NCBI GenBank assembly: GCA_937921305.1
Contig: CAKZSU010000006.1
Location: forward strand, 134,646 to 178,729
DNA length: 44,084 bases
Direction of reading: 5' to 3'
Source: an uncultured Patescibacteria group bacterium
GTDB taxonomy: Bacteria > Patescibacteriota > Microgenomatia > UBA10105 > UBA927
Part shown: positions 7,665-36,733 of the stretch, piece by piece
Numbering within the stretch: the stretch's first letter is position 1
Layout of the letters: each line of letters starts with the position of its first letter
Made by a program: the position numbers and the translations under genes
Notes under the pieces: generated by a model
What the model was told of the DNA's origin: nothing
The model's input: the letters and a program-made list of their open reading frames with translations, nothing else
Database searches by the model: none

Positions 7665-8633
7665 TTAGATGCCATACGATACCCACTGAAAGTTTTTGAA
7701 TACCCAGTCAATAAGGGCTGTTGTGTCGGCAAACCGATCTTGACTTCGCATTACTACAATAATCACTCGTCTTCCATCTCGTTCGACAAGCGTTACAAGA
7801 TTCTGTCCCGCTTCTTGCGTAAATCCTGTTTTTATTCCAGAAACTCCCGGCACTTTTCCTAATAATTGATTTGTTGTTTTTAATTTATGAAAAACTGTGT
7901 AATCAACATCTGACACTGTAATCTCTGGAATACTTACCATTTTTTTTATCAATGGATAGGTCAACGCCACCCTTGCAAGACGAGCAAGATCCTTTGCCGA
8001 CATCCTATGAGTTGACTCGTCCCACCCCACAACATTCGTAAACAATGAATGCTCAAGATAGATCGATCTCGCTTTCTCATTCATAACGCGAACAAACCCG
8101 TGATATCCTTCGGGATGATGAAACGCGAGTTGTTCCGCCGCGTCATTCCCTGATTGAATCAGAATTCCATATAAAAGATTTTCGACGGTAATTCGTTCGT
8201 TCAAAATTAATCTCATGAGCTGACCTCCCGCTGTTGATGGTTTTACGCTAACAATGTCTGACGGATCATACACATCAAGAGCTACCATCGCGGTCATGAG
8301 CTTTGTGGTTGACGCGGGAGGAAGAGGAATCGTCTCGTTTTTGGCATATAAAGAAACACCGGAACCATCATCAACAATATATACCGCATGCGCGGTAATT
8401 TCGCTTGGCGGTGGCGTTTGCGCAATATTCACAGGATACGGCGCTGGCGTTGGAATTGGAAGATGTTCCAGAGAACCAAACGATATCGACGGAAACGCGG
8501 TAACCGACCCTTGTCGCTCTTTTTGAGGAGAAATAAGAATCAATAAAGCGATAATAAAAAGAAAAATAACATATTCTCTTCGCTCAATCCACCAATACCG
8601 CTTTGATCGGAATAACCGGGACATACCTACCAT
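7665..8633 (-). CDS. dacA: D-alanyl-D-alanine carboxypeptidase (PBP5/6-like, S11)
   Basis: STTK (SxxK), SGND (SxN), KTGFT (KTG) motifs plus N-terminal membrane segment; alternative start at 8624. Confidence 0.92.
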   Translation of the reverse strand: MVGMSRLFRSKRYWWIERREYVIFLFIIALLILISPQKERQGSVTAFPSISFGSLEHLPIPTPAPYPVNIAQTPPPSEITAHAVYIVDDGSGVSLYAKNETIPLPPASTTKLMTAMVALDVYDPSDIVSVKPSTAGGQLMRLILNERITVENLLYGILIQSGNDAAEQLAFHHPEGYHGFVRVMNEKARSIYLEHSLFTNVVGWDESTHRMSAKDLARLARVALTYPLIKKMVSIPEITVSDVDYTVFHKLKTTNQLLGKVPGVSGIKTGFTQEAGQNLVTLVERDGRRVIIVVMRSQDRFADTTALIDWVFKNFQWVSYGI

Positions 8634-8644
8634 TATGCCATGAT

Positions 8645-10480
8645 TTATCGAGAGAAGTCTCCTACTATAGGGCGAGCGACTCGTTCAAGATCGTGAGGAT
8701 TCATCGCTATGGTTTTATCATGACGCCCCGGATTAAAGTAAATTCGTTCATTGTCTTTTATATGATCATCCATATAAAGAGGAATTGAAAACATGTGACC
8801 AAATGGAGGCACCGCTCCAATTTCAACGCCTGTCACGCGTTTTACTTCGTCTGGAGTTGCCATACGAAGATCTCGAATACCATACAGCGACTTAAGTCGC
8901 CTTATATCTATTTTTTTATCTCCCGACACCACCACCATAATCGGTTTTCCATCCGCATACATAAGAATCGCTTTGGCTCCTGTGGAGACAGGAACGCCGC
9001 GAACCTTCGCGGCTTCTTCCGATGTTTTCACTGGTTCATGATCAGAAACTGTGAAAGAAACAGCATGCTTTTTTAATTCATCGACAATCTGTTCAAAGAT
9101 CGATGCTGTCTTTTTTACAATCGCAATCCCTAATTCATCCAATTGTTCTTGATCAACCTCGTTTGGCGCGTCCATGACGCTAGTCATTCCTCCGGATGTC
9201 TGAGGAAACGCGACAACCTCTCGAAGGTACGGCTCGCCAGTAATTGTCATAAGAAGCCTCTCGATTCCATGAGCAAGCCCGCCATGCGGCGGAACGCCAT
9301 AAGAAAACGCTTCAAGCATATGTCCAAACTGCTTATATATTCGACCTTTGTCATATCCCATAATCTCAAACACCGCTTGCAACACTTCTGGTTCATGACT
9401 TCGAATGCTTCCCCCGCCAACTTCGTACCCGTTGCACACAAGATCATACTGCGATGTCAAAATATCCCCAATTCGCTCTTTGTTAAGAAGCCACGATTTA
9501 TGTTCTTCCTTTGGCATGGAAAATGGATTGTGCGTAAATGTCCAACCGCCTTCATTTGTTTTTTCAAAAAATGGAAAATCAATTACCCACGCAAAGGCAA
9601 GAATATTCTGTTTCTTTTCCTCCTCTGTCCGAAGATCGAATTTATCCGCGCCAAATTTTTCTATCGCCTCTTGATAAGTAAATATAGGAAATGGCTTTTG
9701 TTTTATGGTGTATCCAAGCGATTCAATGACGTACGTTATCATATTCTCGTCCATTGCCATGACATCTTCTCGAGTTACAAAACTCATTTCCAAATCAATC
9801 TGCGTATGCTCAAACCCTCGATCAGCCCGCAAATCTTCATCTCGAAGACATCGAGCGATTTGAAAATACCGTTCAAACCCAGCAACCATAAGCAATTGTT
9901 TATATTGTTGCGGAGACTGGGGAAGCGCGTAAAATGTTCCGGGGTGAAGACGCGACGGGACAAGAAAATCTCTCGATCCTTCTGGCGTTGATTTTGTCAA
10001 CATTGGCGTTTCTATTTCAACAAAATCGTGACGGAATAAGTATTGTCGCACAGCGTCAACAAACCGAGATCGAAGTCGAATATTTCGTTGCAACCGCTCC
10101 CGTCGCAAATCAAGATAGCGATATTTTAATCGAACTTCTTCAGAAATATTATAACCATCCGTATGAATAGGAAGCGGTAATTCTTTTGCATGGGAAAGAA
10201 TCGTAAGAGTCTTTATTTCAACTTCGACCATTCCTGTGGAAAGATGTGGATTAATCATATGGTTGGGACGTTTTCGAACAATACCTTCTACAGAAATAAC
10301 ATCTTCCGGGGAAACTTTTGAAAAAGACCTGTCTCCAACCAATTGAACAATCCCTGATCTGTCGCGAAGGTCGATGAATACGACACCTCCATGTCTTCGC
10401 ACTGAATTCACCCATCCTTGAAGCAATACGGGCTTCTCTATACGGGCCATTGTCTGTTTAGACAGATTACGATTTTGCAT
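8645..10480 (-). CDS. aspS: aspartyl-tRNA synthetase with a C-terminal YbaK/ProX-type editing domain
   Basis: OB fold GWVNSVRRHGGVVFIDLRDRSGIVQLV; class II motifs; GLAHGIERLLMTITG; residues after QLDELGIAIVKK (approx. 8645-9109) form TASIFEQIVDEL...EPVKTSEEAAKVRGVPVSTGAKAILM...EIGAVPPFGH. ORF track start 10525; MQNRNL start at 10480 lies behind TTGTCA-17-TAAAAT. Confidence 0.94.
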   Translation of the reverse strand: MQNRNLSKQTMARIEKPVLLQGWVNSVRRHGGVVFIDLRDRSGIVQLVGDRSFSKVSPEDVISVEGIVRKRPNHMINPHLSTGMVEVEIKTLTILSHAKELPLPIHTDGYNISEEVRLKYRYLDLRRERLQRNIRLRSRFVDAVRQYLFRHDFVEIETPMLTKSTPEGSRDFLVPSRLHPGTFYALPQSPQQYKQLLMVAGFERYFQIARCLRDEDLRADRGFEHTQIDLEMSFVTREDVMAMDENMITYVIESLGYTIKQKPFPIFTYQEAIEKFGADKFDLRTEEEKKQNILAFAWVIDFPFFEKTNEGGWTFTHNPFSMPKEEHKSWLLNKERIGDILTSQYDLVCNGYEVGGGSIRSHEPEVLQAVFEIMGYDKGRIYKQFGHMLEAFSYGVPPHGGLAHGIERLLMTITGEPYLREVVAFPQTSGGMTSVMDAPNEVDQEQLDELGIAIVKKTASIFEQIVDELKKHAVSFTVSDHEPVKTSEEAAKVRGVPVSTGAKAILMYADGKPIMVVVSGDKKIDIRRLKSLYGIRDLRMATPDEVKRVTGVEIGAVPPFGHMFSIPLYMDDHIKDNERIYFNPGRHDKTIAMNPHDLERVARPIVGDFSR

Positions 10481-10600
10481 ACTCTGGATACGTAGAATTT
10501 TAAATAAAAATGTATATATTGACAAGAATTATTTTTTTTCTTAAAATTTATCAGATTAATTTTTTATTCCTTGATACCTTAATAAATAATAAATCACAAT

Positions 10601-10867
10601 ATGAAAAAAGAACATCGAGAACATCTAGGAGGTAGAGTATCAGAAGAAAAAAGAAAACTATTAGCCAGATATGCCGAGGCTATTAAAACATATTTAATTG
10701 CACTTAATAAATTAGGTGTTGATCCAGAGAGTTTATGCAAATTAGCTGAGCTTCAATTTAAGATGTTACAAGAAAAAACACCAAGAAGAGATATAGAAGC
10801 TTTCTTGGAATCAGCAGCAGCAGCAGAAGAAGCAGCAGCAAAAGCAAAAAATAAGACTACTAGCTGA
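10601..10867 (+). CDS. small hypothetical protein with Ala/Glu/Lys-rich C-terminus
   Basis: 88-aa ORF in AT-rich DNA, charged helical composition; no recognised family. Confidence 0.5.
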   Translation: MKKEHREHLGGRVSEEKRKLLARYAEAIKTYLIALNKLGVDPESLCKLAELQFKMLQEKTPRRDIEAFLESAAAAEEAAAKAKNKTTS

Positions 10868-23596: not shown

Positions 23597-24196
23597 ATGA
23601 GAGGATTTACCCTCCTTGAATTTATTCTTGCCATCTTTCTTTTTTCAAGCATCGTTGGATTTGTTTCCTTCTTTTTTATTTCATATCTTCAAACCTACTC
23701 TTTCTCTTTTGAACATCAACGAATTATCAATGAAGCGCAAGGAGGAATGACACAGATGATTCGAGAAATACGAAAAATCAGAAATGGAGACAATGGATCA
23801 TGGCCGATTATTCAAGCGGACGATTTCTCATTTGCATTTTATGCAGATGTCACGAATGATGGACGAACCGATAGAGTCAGATATTTTCTTGATGGAACAG
23901 AACTTAAACGAGGAGTCATTGAACCAACTGCAGTGCCTGTTTCCTACCCTCTTCAGAATGAAACAATTACCACAATTGCTCGATTTGTTCACGCAACATC
24001 ATCAGCAATATTTCGCTATTACAACGGCGATTGGCCGGGAGACACGATCAATAATCCCCTTTCTCCTTCTCAGCGAGTCCTCAATACGCGATTTGTGGAA
24101 GTTACGCTCACGATTTATCCACCTAGTCAATCTGTCACAAAACCATTTACGCTTTCAAGCGGCGTCACAATACGAAGCATGAAAACGAATTTATAA
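23597..24196 (+). CDS. minor pilin-like (prepilin-type) protein
   Basis: MRG|FTLLEFILAIFLFSSIVGFVSFFFISYL. Confidence 0.88.
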   Translation: MRGFTLLEFILAIFLFSSIVGFVSFFFISYLQTYSFSFEHQRIINEAQGGMTQMIREIRKIRNGDNGSWPIIQADDFSFAFYADVTNDGRTDRVRYFLDGTELKRGVIEPTAVPVSYPLQNETITTIARFVHATSSAIFRYYNGDWPGDTINNPLSPSQRVLNTRFVEVTLTIYPPSQSVTKPFTLSSGVTIRSMKTNL

Positions 24197-25605: not shown

Positions 25606-26826
25606 TTATCTCTTTCCTTGCATAGATTCTTGAAAATTCCCAACAACGCTGTATATTGGCGCGATGATTGAAAGAATCATTATTCCAACGGCAATACCAA
25701 CCAATAACATCATGATCGGTTCAATAATCTGCGTTAACCCTTTAACTTCTTCTTCAACTTCTTCTTCATAAAATGACGCAAGATCCGCCATTGTTTCATC
25801 AAGTGTCGCCGTCTTCTCTCCAGCGGCAACCATCTGAACAAACAACGAGGAAAACACTCCGGTTTCTTTGATCGCTGTTGACAAAGACTTTCCTTTTCGT
25901 ATTTCACTCGGAATCCGTTCACGCATAGAACGATATTGTTTCCATGTCAAAAGAGAAAATGATATCTCCAACGCTTCTGTAATCGGAACGGCACTTCGAA
26001 TAAGCGTGGAGAAAATTCGACAGAATCTTGCCAAATCAATTTTCTTAATTAAATTTCTTATGATCGGAATGTATCCTAAAAGTTTAATTATTCCATCTCG
26101 AAACGATCGCGTCTTCATTCCAAAAAAGAGCAATATAAGAAAGCCAATCGCTCCTAATACAATTGGAAACATGTACGAAGAAAGCGCAATCGACGCGGTA
26201 AACATCATTTTCGTAAAAAATGGAAGCGGAAGCGACAAGCTCAAAAATACTTTTCCTATTTGGGGCAGGATAAAGAAAAACATCAAAATTCCTATGCCAA
26301 TCATTGCAAGAAACACAATAGCAGGATACAACATTGCTCCTTTAATTTTTGATTTCAAACTGTGTTCAGATCGAAGCTCCACTTCTAAATAATGAAAGAC
26401 TTCCGAAAGTTTTCCGCTTACCTCTCCCGCTTTCATGAGCGTCAAAAAATACGCTTCAAAGACAGAAGGATATCGCTCAAAAATTACTGACAATGGTTGC
26501 CCCTGCTCTAATCCATATTCCATGTCGCTAAGAATTCTTTTCATGAGGGGATGTTTGGTCTCTCTTTTTAAGACATCTATTCCTTCAGAAAGAGAAAGAC
26601 CAGTCGAAAGCATAATGTGCATGTATCGACAGAAGGTAATCTTTTCTACTTCAGGAATGCTTCCGCCAATGAATGACCGCTCAACAATAGGCTTAATGAC
26701 CAACGGCGTAAGCATTTTGCCAGATAATTGATGCGCAACATCGTCTATGTTCTTTCCGGAGACAATGCCTTCAACAATATGTTTTTCTTTATCAATAGCT
26801 TTATAAGTGAAATTTGGCATAGGCAA
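25606..26826 (-). CDS. pilC: type IV pilus inner membrane platform protein PilC (GspF family)
   Basis: FTYKAIDKEKHIVEGIVSG...FCRYMHIMLSTGLSLSEGIDVLKRET...LMKAGEVSGKLSEVFHYL...MVAAGEKTATLDETMADLASFYEEEV. Confidence 0.95.
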   Translation of the reverse strand: MPMPNFTYKAIDKEKHIVEGIVSGKNIDDVAHQLSGKMLTPLVIKPIVERSFIGGSIPEVEKITFCRYMHIMLSTGLSLSEGIDVLKRETKHPLMKRILSDMEYGLEQGQPLSVIFERYPSVFEAYFLTLMKAGEVSGKLSEVFHYLEVELRSEHSLKSKIKGAMLYPAIVFLAMIGIGILMFFFILPQIGKVFLSLSLPLPFFTKMMFTASIALSSYMFPIVLGAIGFLILLFFGMKTRSFRDGIIKLLGYIPIIRNLIKKIDLARFCRIFSTLIRSAVPITEALEISFSLLTWKQYRSMRERIPSEIRKGKSLSTAIKETGVFSSLFVQMVAAGEKTATLDETMADLASFYEEEVEEEVKGLTQIIEPIMMLLVGIAVGIMILSIIAPIYSVVGNFQESMQGKR

Positions 26827-26831
26827 GATTG

Positions 26832-28505
26832 TTATTCACGGACAACACGAAGTACTTCCTCGATGCTTGTTAAGCCACTACTTGCTTTGCTTATGCCATC
26901 TTGCAATAACGAAACCATACCATATTGTTTTGCTAATTCGAGAATCTGCATTGTCGATTCTCGTTTTGCGATAAGATTCCGCATATCATCGGTAATTTCT
27001 ATAATCTCAAAAATTCCAATTCTTCCCTTGTACCCACGCATGCCACAATCTTCGCATCCGACGCTTTTATAAAATGAACGAGGAATATCTTGGTTTCCTA
27101 CGGATTCACGAAGAAACGAAAGCATGTCATCGGACAATTCAACGCGTTGAATGCACCGAGGGCACAACCGACGAACCAACCGTTGAGCAATCACCATCGT
27201 AAGTGTTGACGAAAGAAGAAATCCCTCCACGCCCATATCTAAAAAACGCGGAATAGCGCCTATCGCGTCATTTGTATGCAAAGTGGATAAAACCAAATGT
27301 CCGGTAAGCGAAGAATGAATTGCCATTTCTGCTGTTTCTTGATCGCGAATTTCCCCCACCATAATGACATCCGGATCGTGACGAAGAAGCGCCCGAAGAC
27401 CAGCGGCAAAAGTAAGTCCAGCTAATGGATTAATCTGAATCTGATTCACGCGCTTTATGCCATATTCCACCGGGTCTTCCACTGTGCATATTTTTACATC
27501 TGCCTTATTTAACATGGTTAAAATACTATAAAGCGTTGTCGTTTTTCCCGATCCTGTTGGTCCAGTCACAAGAATCAACCCATGCGGCTTCGTGATATTT
27601 CGTTTTACTATAGAAAGATTATTTTCTGTAAGTCCAAGTTCTTCAAATGATAACGGACGAGCAGATTCCGCAAGCAATCGAAGCACGACATTTTCCCCAT
27701 AAAACGCGGGCAGAATAGAAACACGAAGCGCAACATATTGCTCTTTCAATTTAAACTTGAATCGTCCATCTTGAGGAACTCGATGTTCATCGATTTTCAA
27801 AAATGAAAGAATTTTTATGCGAGCGACAATCCCAGCATGAATGTTCTTTGGCAAAGAAACAATATCATGAAGCATCCCGTCAATTCTAAATCGAACTAAA
27901 AATGCGTCTTCCAACAGTTCAAAATGAATATCTGACGCTCCTTCGGAAACCGCGTATTCAAGAATCGTATCGAGAATTCGAACAACAGGAAGATCTTTGC
28001 CAGAAGAAATTTCTCCTTGAATCGTTTTGCTTGCTTGAATATTTTCGTTAATAATAGATTGAAACACTTCTTTTATATTTTTTTTATATTGTCCGATCGC
28101 TTTCAAAATATCTTGCTTTCTTGCGTAATACACCCGCAATTGATATCCTGTCTTTCTTTTTACAAACTCTTTTGCCTCTAAATCCGATGGGTCTTCCATG
28201 GCAAGAGACAATTCCTCTCCTTCCAACGCAAAGGGAACAATATGAAAAGAAGATGCCGCTTCTTCCGGAATAACATTCAAAACACTGAGAGGAATCACTT
28301 TTCGAGATATATCAATGTACGGAACATGATAGAATTCAGCAATTAACCTTCCGATGATATCTTCTGTCAACAATCCTTGATATACCAATACATCTTGAAT
28401 ATCTTTGCCGAGCTCATGAGCAGACGATTCAGCGATCTCAAAATCTTTTTGAGAAACAAATCCAGAAGAGAGAATAATATCTCGAAACTGGGCAGCGGTA
28501 AACAT
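26832..28505 (-). CDS. pilB: type IV pilus assembly ATPase PilB (GspE family)
   Basis: GPTGSGKTTTLYSIL, EDPVEYGIKRVNQIQINPLAGLTFAAGLRALLRHDPDVIMVGEIRDQETAEMAIHSSLTGHLVLSTLHTNDA, zinc motif CPRC...CEDC. Confidence 0.97.
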   Translation of the reverse strand: MFTAAQFRDIILSSGFVSQKDFEIAESSAHELGKDIQDVLVYQGLLTEDIIGRLIAEFYHVPYIDISRKVIPLSVLNVIPEEAASSFHIVPFALEGEELSLAMEDPSDLEAKEFVKRKTGYQLRVYYARKQDILKAIGQYKKNIKEVFQSIINENIQASKTIQGEISSGKDLPVVRILDTILEYAVSEGASDIHFELLEDAFLVRFRIDGMLHDIVSLPKNIHAGIVARIKILSFLKIDEHRVPQDGRFKFKLKEQYVALRVSILPAFYGENVVLRLLAESARPLSFEELGLTENNLSIVKRNITKPHGLILVTGPTGSGKTTTLYSILTMLNKADVKICTVEDPVEYGIKRVNQIQINPLAGLTFAAGLRALLRHDPDVIMVGEIRDQETAEMAIHSSLTGHLVLSTLHTNDAIGAIPRFLDMGVEGFLLSSTLTMVIAQRLVRRLCPRCIQRVELSDDMLSFLRESVGNQDIPRSFYKSVGCEDCGMRGYKGRIGIFEIIEITDDMRNLIAKRESTMQILELAKQYGMVSLLQDGISKASSGLTSIEEVLRVVRE

Positions 28506-28509
28506 GAGT

Positions 28510-28881
28510 TTATTGTATCGAAAGATACGATTTTATTTTATTCACTAATTCTGTTGGAGAAATATTCGCTTTTACGATGAATTCATTCGCGCCAAGTTCC
28601 AACGCCCTCTTCATTTCTGACTCTTGCGCGAGATTTGAGTATACAATAATCGGAACCTGCTTCAACACATCATGGCGCCGAAGAGTTTCAAGGACACTGA
28701 ACCCATCCATCTTTGGCATCATAATATCAAGCAGAATAAGATCGGGACGCTCTTGCTCAGCAATTCTAAGTCCTTCTTCTCCATTACCTGCGGACAATAC
28801 TTTAAACCCATCGGCGACAAGCCTGGTTGTATAAATCTTTACGATTAATGAATCATCTTCTATAAGAAGGATCTTTTTCAT
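28510..28881 (-). CDS. CheY-like response regulator
   Basis: MKKILLIEDDSLIVKIYTTRL...PDLILLDIMMPKMDGFSVLETLRR...IIVYSNL; receiver domain only. Confidence 0.93.
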   Translation of the reverse strand: MKKILLIEDDSLIVKIYTTRLVADGFKVLSAGNGEEGLRIAEQERPDLILLDIMMPKMDGFSVLETLRRHDVLKQVPIIVYSNLAQESEMKRALELGANEFIVKANISPTELVNKIKSYLSIQ

Positions 28882-28902
28882 AAACATGTCTATCATACCA
28901 TA

Positions 28903-31035
28903 TTATGTCGCTATAGGAAGCGTGAAATAAAACGTTGAACCTTTTCCAATTTCAGATTCAAGCCAGATTTCACCCTCGAGTCCTTCAATGATTTTTTTAC
29001 AAATATATAACCCCAATCCTGTACCTCCTATTGTTTTTGTATAGTCGGTGCGAACTTGAGAATATTTTTTAAACAATAAATCAAAATGCTCTTTATGAAT
29101 TCCTGTTCCCGTGTCAGAAACTGATGTAACAACATATTTTCCATCAACGAAGCAACGAATCGTTACGCCTCCTTTTGATGTAAATTTAATAGCGTTCCCA
29201 ACAAGATTCACAAGAACTTCTCGAACTTTATCATCATCGCCAAACACGAGAGGAAGATTCTCTGAACTTTCAAAGTGAAGACGAAGATGTTTTTCATTTG
29301 CGCCAAACTCAAAATTTCTCAGAACATCAGCGATAAGAATATTTAAATTAATTCGAGAAATTGTAAAAGACAATGTGCCCGAATCTATCTTTGACGTGTT
29401 GAGTAGATTGTTGACGATACGAATTAACCGATCATTTTCATTGTACGCTGCGGTTAAAAAGTCTCTCGCTTCATCTGAAATCGACCCGGCATATCCTTCT
29501 AAAATTGTCGAAATAGATCCTTTTATCGCAGCCATGGGAGTTCGCAATTCATGTGCCGCAACAGATACGAACTCATCTTTTAATTTAATCAATTCCTGAA
29601 GCCTATTATTTGTTTCTTTCAATTCTTTTGTGGCTTTTTCTATCTCTCGTTGCAAATTTTCATTAAACTTTTTTATTGCCTCATACGATTGAGCGTTTCT
29701 AATAGCAACAGCGGCTTCATGAGAAACAATCTCAATCAACGCAATATCTTGGTTCATATAGCTTTCCCCAGATTGTTTAATTCCTAAAAATAAATATGCG
29801 ACACATTCGTCTCTTGTCTTGCATGGAGCAATAAGTCTTATACCATGTTGTCGCATATACTCTTTTGTGTCTGATTCTTCAAGCTCATCAAACAGAATCA
29901 ATGATTCTGTGTGCAAGCATTCACAATCTTCCTTTTTAAGAGAAGACATAAAATGTTTAGGGACAGCAAATATGCGAAAATAATGATTCTTTTCAGGGAT
30001 AACCAATGCTGATGAAGAAGGCTTAAGAACGGAAGAAAGTTCTTCAATTAATCGATGTGAGAGATCATCGAGGACAATTGTTGATGTGATGCTTTTTGTA
30101 ATATGAGCAATTGCGTCATCAATATCGTATGTATCTTTAAATAATAATCGGGCTGTTAATTTCTGAACTCTTTTTTTAATCCATTGAAATGATAAGGAAA
30201 TAAAAACAATGAAAGCGATAATCAACACTTGCTCTTCTGGACGAAGAGAAACCCCAAATAAGATTTTTCCAATCAAAACAACAACAAACGCATAAAATAA
30301 AGCAATCAATATAAGCATGAAGACATACGTAAAAGCTCGAAGAAGAAATATATGTAAATCGAGTAGTTTATGACGAACAATGGCATAACTGGTGAATCCG
30401 ACAAAGACAAGCGTGTATATCGGCAAAAGTCTGACAAAACTTGTAATATTTAAAAATATGACAAAAAACACATTCGTCAAAAGAATTGCAAAAAACATAA
30501 AAAACGCTCCCCAAAATACCGTCCATATTTGTTTTTTTTGTATTCCATTTGATCTGCGAAGTTTTCTTATAAGAACGAAAAACCCGCCTCCCAAAAAACA
30601 TATGGTATGAAGAAGAAACAACGGCATGCCATAACTAGGCGTTATTTGTATCTTCCCATCAATCACCTGAACAGATGAAAAAACACCATTCGTCAATATA
30701 AGAGGAAAAAGACAAATTGTGAATAAAAACAATAAAAATTTCCATGTAAATGGAATTACATCTCGAGCATTCGGAAATGTAATCATGAAAAGAGCAAAGA
30801 AAAAATTAATAAGAAGCGCGATGGTCATAACAATTTTTACCCAAAAAAATGCCATATTGTTATCAATTTGATTATTCGCGATTTCATTTGTTGCAATATA
30901 CAGTGCAACGCTCAACGAAAAATAAAAGAACATTCTATTTGTCGCGCTTCTCGGGTTTTTTATGAGGATGAAAACGCCAAGAATGCTATTTGCCAAAAAA
31001 GCGAGCACTACAATAAATGATACGATGATATCCAT
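28903..31035 (-). CDS. multi-TM sensor histidine kinase with GAF-like region
   Basis: About 8 N-terminal TM helices, HisKA AAHELRTPMAAIKGSISTILEG, HATPase boxes NLVGNAIKFTSKG, DTGTGI, GGTGLGLYICKKI. Confidence 0.93.
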   Translation of the reverse strand: MDIIVSFIVVLAFLANSILGVFILIKNPRSATNRMFFYFSLSVALYIATNEIANNQIDNNMAFFWVKIVMTIALLINFFFALFMITFPNARDVIPFTWKFLLFLFTICLFPLILTNGVFSSVQVIDGKIQITPSYGMPLFLLHTICFLGGGFFVLIRKLRRSNGIQKKQIWTVFWGAFFMFFAILLTNVFFVIFLNITSFVRLLPIYTLVFVGFTSYAIVRHKLLDLHIFLLRAFTYVFMLILIALFYAFVVVLIGKILFGVSLRPEEQVLIIAFIVFISLSFQWIKKRVQKLTARLLFKDTYDIDDAIAHITKSITSTIVLDDLSHRLIEELSSVLKPSSSALVIPEKNHYFRIFAVPKHFMSSLKKEDCECLHTESLILFDELEESDTKEYMRQHGIRLIAPCKTRDECVAYLFLGIKQSGESYMNQDIALIEIVSHEAAVAIRNAQSYEAIKKFNENLQREIEKATKELKETNNRLQELIKLKDEFVSVAAHELRTPMAAIKGSISTILEGYAGSISDEARDFLTAAYNENDRLIRIVNNLLNTSKIDSGTLSFTISRINLNILIADVLRNFEFGANEKHLRLHFESSENLPLVFGDDDKVREVLVNLVGNAIKFTSKGGVTIRCFVDGKYVVTSVSDTGTGIHKEHFDLLFKKYSQVRTDYTKTIGGTGLGLYICKKIIEGLEGEIWLESEIGKGSTFYFTLPIAT

Positions 31036-31134: not shown

Positions 31135-32139
31135 TTAAAGATGAAACTTGTCTTTTAATTGTTGAATATATGCGTTACGCTGTTCTTGATGAGAATCAAG
31201 ATTGTATGAAGCGTCCAATAATTCATCAAGAGAAACAACATATCTTCCTGAACAAACATCTTCACCGAGACATATCTTTTTTATCGTTGTTGCCACAACA
31301 CCTCCAGCGATTGTCGCCGTCGCGCCAAGCTGAGGCCATGTCGGCAATGTTTCTCCTATTTGCACTATGGAAGCAAGCATTCTCTCGCTGTTATGATCAA
31401 ACCCCACAAGCTGAATGATGCATCGTCGTTTCTCATCTATTGAGAGCTTTTGAATATTTTTTATAATTTCTTCATCAATCCTTCCCAAAAACGGCTTCGG
31501 CATTGGATCTCTATCATATCGTTCAATATCAAGAATTACATTGTCTCCAACATCGGCAGCGCTTACCAAAGGAATTCTTTTCTTTTTTGCCATCATTCGC
31601 AAAAATACTTTTCCTTCGATATCATCAATTGCATCGATAATGCAATGGACTTCTGGATCATGAAACATTGTTTGCATATGAGAAACATCATCAAAATGAA
31701 TAACTTCAGCAAAAGGATTGATTTTAAGCAAAGTCTCTCTTACAACATTTACTTTTTTTCTTCCAACATCATCCCATCCACATCGCAATCTATTTAAGTT
31801 TGACGGATCTATCGTATCGGGATCCAAAATTTTTACCCTTTTTGCTCGCGACTCCATCATCCATGTGATAACAGCGTGACTCCCCACGCTTAACCCAAAA
31901 CATGCCACAATGAAATCTTGTAATCGTTTTTGCTCTTCAACCGTAATAAGATTTCTATTTCTCAATGTTGAAACAACAGTATAAACTTCTTCGTCTTCCT
32001 CAAGTTTTTTAAATCCACAAGCAATGTCTTGATCGCCAACATAATCATTGACGATCCGATCAAGAATGCTTCGCGAGTCTGAATCGACCATCGCGCTTTT
32101 TTGAAGATCTTTCATCAACGCAGAATATTTCGTTTTCAT
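31135..32139 (-). CDS. ThiF/MoeB/E1-like adenylyltransferase family protein
   Basis: ACFGLSVGSHAVITWMMESRAKRVKILDPDTIDPSNLNRLRCGWDDVGRKKVNVVRETLLKINPFAEV...CIIDAIDDIEGKVFLRMMAKKKRIPLVSAADVGD. Confidence 0.85.
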   Translation of the reverse strand: MKTKYSALMKDLQKSAMVDSDSRSILDRIVNDYVGDQDIACGFKKLEEDEEVYTVVSTLRNRNLITVEEQKRLQDFIVACFGLSVGSHAVITWMMESRAKRVKILDPDTIDPSNLNRLRCGWDDVGRKKVNVVRETLLKINPFAEVIHFDDVSHMQTMFHDPEVHCIIDAIDDIEGKVFLRMMAKKKRIPLVSAADVGDNVILDIERYDRDPMPKPFLGRIDEEIIKNIQKLSIDEKRRCIIQLVGFDHNSERMLASIVQIGETLPTWPQLGATATIAGGVVATTIKKICLGEDVCSGRYVVSLDELLDASYNLDSHQEQRNAYIQQLKDKFHL

Positions 32140-32142
32140 ACG

Positions 32143-33597
32143 TTATGCTGTTTTCTTTACTTTATTTAACGGAAAATATTGTTCATCGCTATGTTCATGA
32201 ACATGAATTATTGGATAAACTTTTTCTTTTAATGCTCCTAGAATATACGCATACTCCTTATTTAGTTTGCTCACTTCTTCAATGAAAACTTTCTGAATTC
32301 GTTTCATAAGATCAGCGCGCGGCGAAACATCTTTTTTCAATTCCACTCTGCAAACCAATACTTGTTGATGTGATTCATCTTCTTGAATTTCAAGCAAAAA
32401 TCTTCCAGAGATATATTGCTGAAGTTGTTCGTTATCAAATGCTTGCTGGACATGATCAACATAAATATTCGCTCCATACAGTTTAACCATAAACTTGCTT
32501 CTTCCAAACAGATATATCATGGGAAATTTCGGCAAGTCTATACTATGTGACGCAGAAAACAATCCCATTCGTTCTTGATCAACAACACCGCCCTCATCCT
32601 GAATATTATACCGAATCAACGGACACCCCATGTCTTTGGTAATAACAATCGTCCTTTCTTGACCTTCAAGATAAATCAACCGCGGATCAAAACAATATAA
32701 AGACGGCATTCTTGTGTCAGAAAAAAGATTTTCCCACGCGTGTTTTTCAAATACTTTCCTTCGTATCTCAATAGACTCTGGTGTTTCAAATCCCATCAAC
32801 GACGCGTCTGCCGATCCATACAAATTAATAATCGTTCGAGTGTGCGAATCGGCATGAATCATTCGAAGAAGATATGATCGCCATTGTTCAGTGATTCCTT
32901 GACCTGATCCCAATAATTTAATATGAAGCGACGAAAGATTAACATGTTGACGATCTGCTTCATCAATAATTTCCTTCAAAAATGGCGTGTGCCCGCAAAG
33001 AATTGTTTGATCAAATTGCGGAGATATGTCTCGAAGAATTTCGATGACATGATCTAACGAATATCCCGGCGTCATGATGGTCAAGGGATATCCCTTCCAG
33101 GAAACAAGATTCGCGCATGCAAGCGTAAATGTGCCAGCAATCCAATTTCCCATTGCAAAACCATTAATAAATAGCGTTCGCTTTTCATGAACAAAAAAAA
33201 TCGATCGAAAAATATACTCATGAATTTTCGCTCCATCTATCTCATGATTCAATGATCGCGGCCAATAATGTGCGCTTCCTGTTGTTCCAGAGCTTGTTGA
33301 AATCATCTGTACATCTTGATAGCTCCCATCCCACAGACGATCTCCTTCTGGATAGCGTTCTATATAATTTTCTTTAGATGTTTGAGGAATAGAAGAAAAA
33401 TCATTGATTGATCGAATCTTTGTATGATCAATATGATGAGATCGTAAAAACGCTTTATAGGCAGGGACTCGTTGTGCTGCTTCATGAAACAGTCGAAGCG
33501 CCTTTCTGGCTCCGATTTTTTGCATCACATCTTCGGGAGCATAAGGAGGAGCATTAAACCAATCAACGAGTCTCTTTTTATTCATCATATTTTCCAA
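32143..33597 (-). CDS. phenylacetate-CoA ligase-like (PaaK/ANL superfamily) adenylate-forming enzyme
   Basis: STSSGTTGSAHYWPRS (P-loop), INLYGSADASLMGFETPES, GCPLIRYNIQDEGGV, YLFGRSKFMVKLYGANIYVDHVQQAF. Confidence 0.85.
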   Translation of the reverse strand: MENMMNKKRLVDWFNAPPYAPEDVMQKIGARKALRLFHEAAQRVPAYKAFLRSHHIDHTKIRSINDFSSIPQTSKENYIERYPEGDRLWDGSYQDVQMISTSSGTTGSAHYWPRSLNHEIDGAKIHEYIFRSIFFVHEKRTLFINGFAMGNWIAGTFTLACANLVSWKGYPLTIMTPGYSLDHVIEILRDISPQFDQTILCGHTPFLKEIIDEADRQHVNLSSLHIKLLGSGQGITEQWRSYLLRMIHADSHTRTIINLYGSADASLMGFETPESIEIRRKVFEKHAWENLFSDTRMPSLYCFDPRLIYLEGQERTIVITKDMGCPLIRYNIQDEGGVVDQERMGLFSASHSIDLPKFPMIYLFGRSKFMVKLYGANIYVDHVQQAFDNEQLQQYISGRFLLEIQEDESHQQVLVCRVELKKDVSPRADLMKRIQKVFIEEVSKLNKEYAYILGALKEKVYPIIHVHEHSDEQYFPLNKVKKTA

Positions 33598-35266
33598 ACT
33601 CGTTAAATACTGCTTTTCGAAGCATCTCGTTTATTTTTCCTGATTCGATTTCTTGATAGATTCGCTCTATGTCTTGATTCAAAGGGCGTTCTTCTTTTAC
33701 ATAGGAAACAATCGAACGAATATATTCATACATTGGACGCGTCCTCGGAGAAAGCAGTGATACCCCTTCGCGAAGATCAACTGCTTGAGCAATCGCAATC
33801 GCGTTCATCGCCAAAGAATATCGCAAAACACGAAGTCCCTCCCACGCAAAAAGAGCCGATGTTAATGAATGTGGCGTTATATCTTGATTGTGCTCCTCAT
33901 GAATGCCAAACATCGTTGTCACGGGATTCGCCAACAACATTGAATACACATCGAACATTCCCGACTGAAGCTGAACTCCCTTAAACGCGCACTGAGAGAT
34001 TGCCGATGAATCAGATAAATTCGCGGGGAGACCATTATTTAAATGAGGATTTAATAATCGATGCAATTGACGATCATTTCGCTTAATCAATCTTGTGATA
34101 ATTTTTCTCATTATATCTATGACTTCCCCCATGTGCATGGCAAAAAAATTTCCTCCGCTGACCCATTGCCAAGGTTCTTCCCCATCGACAGCATGTTCTG
34201 GCGTTACCCATAATGGATTGTCAGACACAGAATTTGCGTTAATGGTGATCGTCTCCAATGCCCAAGCGAGAAATTCTCTATTCACCGCTTCCGATTGCGG
34301 CAAACATCGAAGACTATACGCATCCTGGACCGATACGCCTTTTGGACGTTCTTGTTGTCCCTGTAGTTCCTGATATGCAAGTTTGCTTCCATGAAGCAAG
34401 TAACGATAAACTTTTGCTACTTCTTGCTGGCCTCTATGCGGACGAACATTTCCAAGAAATGGATGAAATGGACGCGTGCTCCCTCGAAGAACTTCAACCA
34501 TCATCGCTCCCAACACATCTGCAATCAACTGAAGACGCAACACATCAACAGCAATAAGCGTCGCCGCTGCTGTTGAAAAATTGTCTCCATTAACTAATCC
34601 AAGTCCAGCTTTTGGATCCAATTCTAGCTTCGGAATCTTATGATGCTTCAATGTCGTTCTCGCTGGCTTTTTCTGTCCATCGGCATCCCACACAAATACT
34701 CCATCTAGCTGACGCGCCGCGCTTACCACCCTGCTATTATGAGCAAGATCGCCAGACGCGCCAAGACCTCCATATGCATTCACAACCGGAATGATATCTT
34801 TGTTGAGCATTTGACGAAAGATATCAAGATCGGAAAGCTTCACAGCGCTTACTCCATGCAACAACATATTCATGCGAATCACCATGGCGGCGCGAACAAC
34901 TTCTTTTGGCAATATCGGTCCCACAGTAACATCCGTATGAACAATACTTTTTGAAATTTTCTGAGCAAATAATATTCGATCACTCGCTTCTCCTTCATTC
35001 ACAACATGGCCAGCTCTTGCCCCATACCCTGTGTTGCATCCATAAACAGGAACACCATCAATGACATTTTGCATCATCCGTTGATATGATTCTTCCACCC
35101 TTTTTAAAACAATAGGATTATCAGTAAACTCAATAGGAATTTTCTGATGCGCGACAGCAATAATATCTCGAACATGAAGAGTGGTTCCATCTAAAATAAT
35201 AAGAAAAGGAGGTAGAGCGATATCACGATCAATCTCAATGAGCGTTTTTTCTTTATATGTGCTCAT
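33578..35266 (-). CDS. aromatic amino acid ammonia-lyase (HAL/PAL/TAL family, MIO enzyme)
   Basis: VYGCNTGYGARAG, GGLGASGDLAHNS (ASG triad), LGLVNGDNFSTA, VQDAYSLRCLPQ, SDNPLW, GGNFFAMHMG. Confidence 0.92.
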   Translation of the reverse strand: MSTYKEKTLIEIDRDIALPPFLIILDGTTLHVRDIIAVAHQKIPIEFTDNPIVLKRVEESYQRMMQNVIDGVPVYGCNTGYGARAGHVVNEGEASDRILFAQKISKSIVHTDVTVGPILPKEVVRAAMVIRMNMLLHGVSAVKLSDLDIFRQMLNKDIIPVVNAYGGLGASGDLAHNSRVVSAARQLDGVFVWDADGQKKPARTTLKHHKIPKLELDPKAGLGLVNGDNFSTAAATLIAVDVLRLQLIADVLGAMMVEVLRGSTRPFHPFLGNVRPHRGQQEVAKVYRYLLHGSKLAYQELQGQQERPKGVSVQDAYSLRCLPQSEAVNREFLAWALETITINANSVSDNPLWVTPEHAVDGEEPWQWVSGGNFFAMHMGEVIDIMRKIITRLIKRNDRQLHRLLNPHLNNGLPANLSDSSAISQCAFKGVQLQSGMFDVYSMLLANPVTTMFGIHEEHNQDITPHSLTSALFAWEGLRVLRYSLAMNAIAIAQAVDLREGVSLLSPRTRPMYEYIRSIVSYVKEERPLNQDIERIYQEIESGKINEMLRKAVFNEFGKYDE

Positions 35267-35334
35267 AATATTTTTTATATTGTATATCAAAATCAATATA
35301 AGTAAATACAACGTATTCAATATTGCTACTTTGA

Positions 35335-35346: not shown

Positions 35347-35755
35347 GCCACCAAAACCCGATCCCTCACCTCTGGAAGAAAAATATCTTTTGGGGGAGGA
35401 AAGTCCAGACAGCACCATGGAGGGGACGGAACGCAAGTTCCGACTCGCGCAACATGCGAGATAGTGTCTTTATTGCGAAAGCGATGAAGAACGATTCCTG
35501 AATTGACAGGATGAGAGAGCCACAGAGACGAGCGAAAGCCTACGTCCAAACTTGGATATGGCTGACGAGTGAAACGAGTCTTCATATCAAAATTCCTTGA
35601 TATGAAGCATGGCAATCCCACCCGCTGCAACCGGCGAATTCATTGCAAAAATCCGATCCATGGCGGAGTCAATGAGAAGCATACGGGCATGAGAGAAATG
35701 AGGGGTTATTCACAATCGTGAAAAAACAGAATCTGGCTTACGAGGTTTTGGTGGC
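35347..35755 (+). ncRNA. rnpB: RNase P RNA
   Basis: GAGGAAAGTCCAGACAGCACC (CR-I), CACAGAGACGAG, GGCAATCCCACCCGCTGCAACCGGCGAATT, terminal TCTGGCTTACGAG; P1 helix GCCACCAAAACC pairs perfectly with GGTTTTGGTGGC. Confidence 0.95.
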
Positions 35756-36733
35756 GCTTTGACTAACTTGTTTCTTCGATAAAACATGCTCAATAATTAT
35801 CTGGCCGGTCACAACGATTGGAACGGCCAAAAACGCCCCCATAACACCTTCAAATCGAGAGCCAATCATAAACGCAATGATAACAACAACCGGAGAGAGT
35901 CCAACGCTTCGCTTCATAACTTGTGGAACAATAAGATGATTTTCTAATTGTTGAATAATAAAATATAAAGCTGCGACAGACAGAGCCAAAAGTGGCGAAA
36001 CAGTAAAAGCTATGAGAATCGCTGGAATGGCACTTAACAGCGGACCGACAATTGGTAAGATTTCAAGAATTCCCGCCAACACCGCAAGCGGCAATGCGTA
36101 ATCAACACGAAGGAAAGAAAGGCCAATATATGTTACTACCCCGATAATAATCATCAACAACGCTTGTCCTCTTGCCCACGCGCCCAGTTTTTCTTCTAAT
36201 TTTTGAATAATCACTGTTATATCTTCAGCCATATGTTTAGGGACCCACTGATATATAGTCAATGCCAAGTGATTTCTCCCTAAAAGGAAATAAAAAGAAA
36301 AGACAAAAATCGTAATAAAGGTAATAATATTATTCACAAAGCGAACACTAAACTCAAAAATATTTCGTGTTATTGGAGCCAACTGACTAGTTAAAAATCC
36401 TTGATCAATATTTAATGAGGGAAGGATTGTTTCTGCTATACGAGGAATTCTTTGAATCAACAATGTTCCTTGAGCAACAAACTGAGGAATAAAACTCCCA
36501 AAAAATGCAACAATAAACCCAATGAGAGCGATATATACAAACAAAATTGCCAACACTCTCGGAATTCTGTAATTCGTTAACCATTCCACAGATGGCCGAA
36601 TGGCAGTGGCAAAAATAAATGAGATAAAAAGAAGATAAAGGATGTCTCGAATATGAAGGACAATCCACACACCAACAAGAACTCCAAGAATAAGAAAAAT
36701 CGTCCTGGGAGCAATATCAACAGTTCTATGCAT
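35738..36733 (-). CDS. AI-2E family transporter (PerM/YtvI-like)
   Basis: Multi-TM; LAGILEILPIVGPLLSAIPAILIAF and NHLIVPQVMKRSVGLSPVVVIIAFMIGSRFEGVMGAFLAVPI typical of the family. Confidence 0.9.
   Translation of the reverse strand: MHRTVDIAPRTIFLILGVLVGVWIVLHIRDILYLLFISFIFATAIRPSVEWLTNYRIPRVLAILFVYIALIGFIVAFFGSFIPQFVAQGTLLIQRIPRIAETILPSLNIDQGFLTSQLAPITRNIFEFSVRFVNNIITFITIFVFSFYFLLGRNHLALTIYQWVPKHMAEDITVIIQKLEEKLGAWARGQALLMIIIGVVTYIGLSFLRVDYALPLAVLAGILEILPIVGPLLSAIPAILIAFTVSPLLALSVAALYFIIQQLENHLIVPQVMKRSVGLSPVVVIIAFMIGSRFEGVMGAFLAVPIVVTGQIIIEHVLSKKQVSQSATKTS

Follow-up and report, generated by a model that had tools for sequence, protein, structure and literature searches.

Why should a genome-reduced bacterium keep the genes for an aromatic amino acid ammonia-lyase, an acid-activating ligase and a ThiF/E1-like enzyme side by side? 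The question is raised by a stretch of 44,084 nucleotides (the window) from contig CAKZSU010000006.1 of an uncultured Patescibacteria group bacterium (assembly GCA_937921305.1; 0.97 Mb, 97% completeness), in which an original prediction, made from the sequence alone, had described such a cassette. The three genes were confirmed on the minus strand: lyase and ligase overlap by 20 bp if the ligase is counted from a TTG start (11 bp from its first ATG), and 3 bp separate the ligase from the ThiF-like gene. The three-gene cassette is real; overlooked were a sensor kinase, a response regulator and the flavin oxidase of most relatives. On the same strand the gene order is lyase - ligase - ThiF - seven-transmembrane (7TM) histidine kinase - response regulator - pilB - pilC. 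We give an even chance to the reading that this locus synthesizes and senses a small signal derived from an aromatic acid. It seems to be a chemical signalling system of tiny-genome Patescibacteria that had not been described before, and no description of the gene set in this phylum was found in the literature searched, in which coverage of subscription journals was limited.

The proposed pathway starts from an aromatic amino acid, with tyrosine the likeliest substrate, from which the lyase would make an aryl-acrylate by deamination. With ATP, the PaaK-fold ligase would adenylate this acid and couple it to the amine of a second amino acid; the product would be an N-aryl-acryloyl amino acid. 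The ThiF-like enzyme would then adenylate the remaining carboxylate and cyclize the molecule to an oxazolone (azlactone), which a flavin oxidase would desaturate in most relatives, not in the window. Finally, the product would be sensed by the 7TM histidine kinase, with the response regulator relaying the signal; type IV pili are the probable target in this lineage. What is firm lies at the level of the genes: which genes form the set, how widely it is conserved, the exchange of deaminases, the mutual exclusion of ligase and N-acyl amino acid synthase, and the linkage to the sensor.

To begin with the conservation of the cassette, 389 Patescibacteria genomes were surveyed. The ligase was present in 57 of the 389 genomes, and the ThiF search gave strong matches in 46. 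At E < 1e-30 the ligase was detected in 55 genomes, ThiF in 46 and both in 43 of the 389 (Fisher 1.7e-42; the genomes behind this value are not independent, the inspected loci covering 27 families), and in 41 of these 43 the two genes lie within 3.5 kb of each other. The arrangement recurs, far beyond chance, in relatives whose proteins are roughly 25-65% identical. The original prediction had taken the genes for a functional unit and had named rare co-occurrence in related genomes as the observation that would speak against it; the survey found the opposite. It had also called such a pathway unexpected in a genome-reduced lineage; the cassette proved to be widespread in this reduced-genome phylum and is no oddity of a single lineage.

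For the contig scan five ligase sequences were used, as an alignment of 40 had proved too diverse. Outside the Patescibacteria, none of 71 ligase loci (L085-L159 except L093, L112, L131 and L132) had a lyase, ThiF, oxidase or 7TM kinase adjoining. The ligases of these loci, from methanotrophs, Nitrosomonas, Xenococcaceae and actinomycetes, are close relatives (33-37% identity) that stand as solo genes and have no conserved neighbour, and a Nonomuraea ligase match from a plasmid collection likewise lacked cassette neighbours. A viral origin was also considered and rejected: relatives of the lyase were absent from viral contigs, in a search whose patterns detect close relatives only.

The sensing step is suggested by the gene that follows. 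In 39 of the 42 wide loci the same strand encodes a 7TM kinase at most four genes downstream; among the three exceptions, L041 and L044 lie near contig ends and L069 has its kinase six genes downstream. In at least 33 genomes a HisKA_7TM match (PF16927) was located less than 5 kb from the ligase. When a tree was built from the 7TM region, the cassette kinases stood mostly apart from unlinked kinases: the five of the window type (window and L080-L083) make up a single clade (100/99), and another 32 a single group free of unlinked kinases (93/86). The window-type five branch identically in the ThiF and kinase trees, and therefore synthase and sensor appear to have been inherited together. On the basis of this genetic linkage we infer that the adjacent 7TM kinase senses the cassette product.

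The kinase is also retained when the type of synthase changes. Twenty extra loci were collected around ThiF matches where the ligase match was not strong or did not adjoin ThiF, and in most of them a 7TM kinase adjoins ThiF. An N-acyl amino acid synthase of the FeeM/LuxI fold stands beside ThiF in nine of these 20 loci versus none of 48 ligase loci (p 3e-6). Mainly because this synthase takes the place of the ligase in ThiF-kinase loci, the ligase is proposed to make an N-acyl amino acid. The triplets of ThiF, FeeM/LuxI-like synthase and 7TM kinase, with no ligase next to ThiF (L191-L196, L202, L203 and L206), represent another candidate signalling system, whose sensor belongs to the same class. 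A third version combines ThiF with a methyltransferase-like protein and a 7TM kinase, with neither ligase nor acyltransferase adjoining (L204, L207 and L208).

The kinase linkage bears on the likeliest alternative, in which the oxazolone or N-acyl amino acid is a secreted metabolite (membrane-active, antimicrobial or host-acting) and the role of the kinase is confined to regulating the operon or to detecting something unrelated, for instance envelope stress. It draws on the same biosynthetic evidence as the signal reading, regulators often adjoin metabolite clusters, and N-acyl tyrosines of Stieleria are reported to be antimicrobial and oxazolones to be linked to stress (PMC12856293). However, a single kinase class accompanies 39 of 42 loci, tracks the synthase in the tree and persists through the change of synthase type, and no conserved exporter or immunity gene was found in the clustered neighbourhoods. 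We consider this alternative unlikely, if still a serious one.

Returning to the signal pathway, its first enzyme is encoded at 33578..35266 (minus strand) and matches the aromatic ammonia-lyase family PF00221 with 366 bits. The protein has 562 aa counted from the ATG, to which an upstream TTG at 35320 would add 18 aa, and its orthologues in L080-L083 are 55-65% identical. As originally described, it carries the Ala-Ser-Gly triad that forms the 4-methylideneimidazol-5-one (MIO) cofactor, within a GGLGASGDL motif found in the window lyase and in L080-L083. When aligned to the phenylalanine ammonia-lyase AvPAL, all five window-type lyases have His at the position of F107, which we take to be the ring-binding selectivity position where tyrosine ammonia-lyases carry His (H89 of RsTAL). 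The window lyase thus resembles tyrosine ammonia-lyases, and tyrosine would be its most likely substrate. It has an NQD(I) motif, whereas the HutH-like lyases L001, L002 and L004 have NQEDHVS. Membership in a histidine degradation (hut) pathway was rejected, as no urocanase (PF01175) was found in the genome and the histidine ammonia-lyase signature NQEDHVS is absent from the lyase. The HutH-like lyases themselves (L001-L004, from four other genomes of the window's family; E < 1e-168 to PF00221) lie outside the cassette, and in the three of them that were read TSG replaces the ASG triad.

Across the 42 loci the first slot is filled by a lyase in 10, by a Glu/Leu/Phe/Val-type dehydrogenase in 14 (in L068 with only distant similarity), and by an aminotransferase in 4, and in 14 nothing was recognised there. 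The first-slot dehydrogenase is nearest to the tryptophan dehydrogenase ScyB (257 bits, cut-off 600), and a second lyase type is nearest to the tyrosine ammonia-lyase FlxA (586 bits, cut-off 700). The two lyase types occupy separate positions in the ThiF tree, which suggests that they were recruited independently. In L075 a dehydrogenase and the ligase are naturally fused in one protein of 847 residues (8322-10865, plus strand), tallied here among the unrecognised. Because unrelated deaminating families fill the same slot, the shared first step is apparently the deamination of an amino acid, and apparently of an aromatic one.

The ligase gene (32143..33588, minus strand; first ATG at 33588, alternative TTG start at 33597) gave no Pfam match, and its NCBIfam PaaK score was 42.8 bits against an equivalog cut-off of 646.3. 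An AlphaFold2 model built from a 26-sequence alignment (predicted local distance difference test score, pLDDT, 88.8) was compared with known structures by Foldseek. Its best matches were PaaK1, PaaK2 and a PaaK-like Bacteroides ligase (E about 1e-22 to 1e-21, template modelling score 0.63-0.69), the crystal structures of PaaK being matched with E 2e-22; the amide ligase ClxA and plant GH3 acid-amino acid synthetases ranked lower. The window ligase is hence predicted to have the PaaK fold, in line with the PaaK-like ligase of the original prediction.

The genomes were also searched for the means to make coenzyme A (CoA) and to load carriers. Dephospho-CoA kinase (CoaE) was found in none of 28 ligase genomes, and 4'-phosphopantetheinyl transferase (PPTase, PF01648) in none of the 37 genomes checked; 10 of 14 control genomes were positive in each search. 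CoA- or carrier-bound products are unlikely on these grounds, and direct amide formation is favoured because the ligase genomes lack both CoaE and PPTase. A precedent exists in ClxA, a close fold match of the ligase, which adenylates an aryl acid and needs no CoA to couple it to an amine (PMC12519233). The sequence of deamination and adenylation that had been proposed for the cassette fits the deaminase swaps and the dehydrogenase-ligase fusion; the proposed transfer to a thiol or carrier does not agree with the missing CoaE and PPTase, nor with the grouping of the ThiF-like enzyme described below.

The same searches weigh on a second alternative, in which the ligase draws on scavenged CoA to form an aryl-acyl-CoA or a protein-bound aryl ester, the substrate of ThiF is a different one, and the product serves as a sensor chromophore or cap, as in photoreception by photoactive yellow protein (PYP). 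PaaK is the best fold match and PaaK-type enzymes normally yield CoA thioesters; moreover, a coumaroyl thioester is the PYP chromophore. Against this stand the inability of all 28 ligase genomes to synthesize CoA (by the CoaE search), the keto-acid-yielding deaminases (dehydrogenase, aminotransferase) that share the first slot, and the absence of a PYP domain from the kinase; ThiF and the oxidase would also be left unexplained. We regard it as quite improbable. Known PYP, flexirubin and aryl polyene clusters were rejected altogether, since no PPTase was found, the annotated neighbours include no such genes and the kinase has no PYP-type domain, which agrees with the earlier statement that this is no known pigment or PYP cluster.

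In the preferred oxazolone pathway the third enzyme, encoded at 31135..32139 (minus strand), is the proposed carboxylate-activating cyclase. It was confirmed as a ThiF/E1 relative (PF00899, 69 bits), and its best NCBIfam match is NF005901, the Rv1355c family, with 194 bits over the ThiF half of that model, below the cut-off of 476 for the full fusion. In six ThiF relatives GLSVG, D106, N116, R117, K129, D169 and D172 are invariant; D169 is a candidate counterpart of the adenylation residue Asp217 of TrzS. The structure model (pLDDT only 75) matched AclA best, followed by ThiF, MccB and PaaA. The window protein groups with the oxazolone-forming cyclases (TrzS/OxzB/TyzB) and not with carrier-activating E1 enzymes.

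In most loci the gene after ThiF encodes a nitroreductase-superfamily protein, a putative flavin oxidase resembling Acg/Rv3131 and the C-terminal half of Rv1355c, and in L057 ThiF and oxidase are fused (452 bits to the Rv1355c model, cut-off 476). It has been described that Rv1355c is TrzS, which cyclizes and desaturates N-acyl tryptophan to oxazolones, and that TyzB and TyzC carry out the same conversion on N-acyl tyrosine (PMC12856293, PMC10404671). Within the window clade the oxidase is kept in L081 and L083 and is not found beside ThiF in the window, L080 and L082. The cassette can be said to work like an oxazolone cluster; it is not filed as one because two defining features fail, the acyltransferase everywhere and the oxidase in the window. 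Some cassettes contain an HsaD/BphD-like alpha/beta hydrolase (L055:3631-5532, minus strand, fused to the oxidase; L063:7350-8234, minus strand), which might act in ring opening of the oxazolone or in product release.

The output of the system may be read from the genes behind the kinase. In L080 and L082 a prepilin gene begins at most 4 bp from the kinase stop, L081 and L083 encode a downstream pilin-like protein (PilX-like as judged by eye, no Pfam match), and in the window pilB, pilC and a prepilin gene are nearby. Such a link to pili is a feature of the window lineage, where type IV pili are probably the output. This linkage would also suit a cassette that modifies a peptide or protein such as pilin, with an aryl-acyl group on a peptide amino group and ThiF acting on the C-terminus as MccB and PaaA do; but although MccB and PaaA are structural neighbours of the ThiF-like enzyme and prepilin genes directly follow the kinase in L080 and L082, we hold this to be very improbable, as no precursor peptide gene was recognised among open reading frames of at least 60 aa in the clustered neighbourhoods (shorter ones were not systematically searched), the nitroreductase-type oxidase and the alternative N-acyl amino acid synthase suggest substrates of amino acid size, and linkage to pilins does not extend beyond the window clade.

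Several observations weigh against a synthesized and sensed oxazolone-type signal. Its chemistry is read from protein families and its sensing from linkage, and the pilus output, too, is deduced. HisKA_7TM kinases are common (170 of the 389 genomes), many of them without linkage to ThiF, and pilus genes occur in few loci outside the window clade. In 14 of the 42 loci no deaminase was recognised among the two upstream genes. The window assembly gave neither a nitroreductase-family match nor a relative of the L081 oxidase, so that the window product would be at most a saturated or non-oxidised one, and the window genome has no PF13444 acyltransferase. Moreover, seven of the nine synthase-type genomes also lack CoaE, and CoA may therefore still be scavenged.

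From the cassette onwards the genes are separated by gaps of 99 bp between ThiF and kinase, 6 bp between kinase and regulator, 4 bp between regulator and pilB and 5 bp between pilB and pilC. The proposed product sensor (28903..31035, minus strand) comprises an N-terminal 7TM sensor region (HisKA_7TM), a weak GAF-like region, HisKA and HATPase_c. It is followed on the minus strand by a receiver-only response regulator (28510..28896; PF00072, 97 bits), a PilB-type ATPase (T2SSE with MshEN, 26832..28505), which is a possible signalling output, and a PilC-type platform protein (T2SSF, 25606..26826). Also belonging to the neighbouring pilus locus, a prepilin-like protein (MRGFTLLEFILAIFLF; 23597..24196, plus strand) was identified by motif scan and has no Pfam match. 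Just upstream of the lyase lies a divergent class A RNase P RNA (35350-35756, plus strand; 60 bits, E 8e-18), which a scan at the gathering score of 100 missed. Because of this divergent RNA the same-strand run most likely begins at the lyase. Cassette and kinase form a conserved and probably co-transcribed unit.

Among known systems, oxzAB of Pseudoalteromonas and tyzACB and trzAS of Mycobacterium share with the cassette the ThiF-like cyclase family, aromatic amino acids as expected building blocks and, in most cassette relatives though not in the window, the nitroreductase-superfamily counterpart of their flavin oxidase, sometimes fused. Their N-acyl amino acid synthase is absent from all 48 ligase loci, the cassette having a deaminase and an ATP-dependent ligase instead, and the 7TM histidine kinase belongs to the cassette unit only. 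CqsA/CqsS, LqsA/LqsS and PhcB/PhcS likewise place signal-synthesis genes beside a multi-pass membrane histidine kinase and a response regulator, but the synthetic enzymes of the cassette are unrelated to theirs and its receptor role is deduced from linkage. The aryl-homoserine lactone synthase RpaI makes 4-coumaroyl-homoserine lactone, and a signal from the cassette would similarly combine an aryl-acrylate with a group derived from an amino acid; RpaI-type systems use a LuxI-type synthase and a CoA thioester, whereas the cassette has an ANL ligase in genomes without CoA synthesis. ClxA, the amide ligase of closoxazole in Clostridium, has a PaaK-like fold like the window ligase, but the two share no more than 16-17% identity across the aligned fold. 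Bernard et al. (2020) proposed that Patescibacteria signal with small molecules, LuxI-family homologues included, in their predicted quorum-sensing repertoire of the candidate phyla radiation (PMC7567580), which covered known quorum-sensing families only; its text contains neither ThiF nor histidine kinase, and its 'lyase' is LuxS.

The function of bacterial oxazolones is considered a major unresolved question (PMC12856293), and communication among Patescibacteria is known mostly through predictions from known quorum-sensing families (PMC7567580). In loci from 27 families, gene order links a putative oxazolone-type pathway to a single kinase class and points to a candidate receptor, and the junction with pilB, pilC and prepilins could serve as a readout. 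More tentatively, and leaning somewhat against it ourselves, we propose communication without CoA throughout the phylum, in which aryl-acyl amino acid or oxazolone signals would be made from amino acids and ATP, each with a co-inherited 7TM kinase, and in one lineage would control type IV pili and perhaps host attachment. If true, this would supply the first receptor for oxazolones. In genomes unable to make CoA, deamination and an ATP-dependent ligase would stand in for an acyl-CoA-dependent synthase, which suggests a route by which a genome-reduced lineage may keep small-molecule chemistry.

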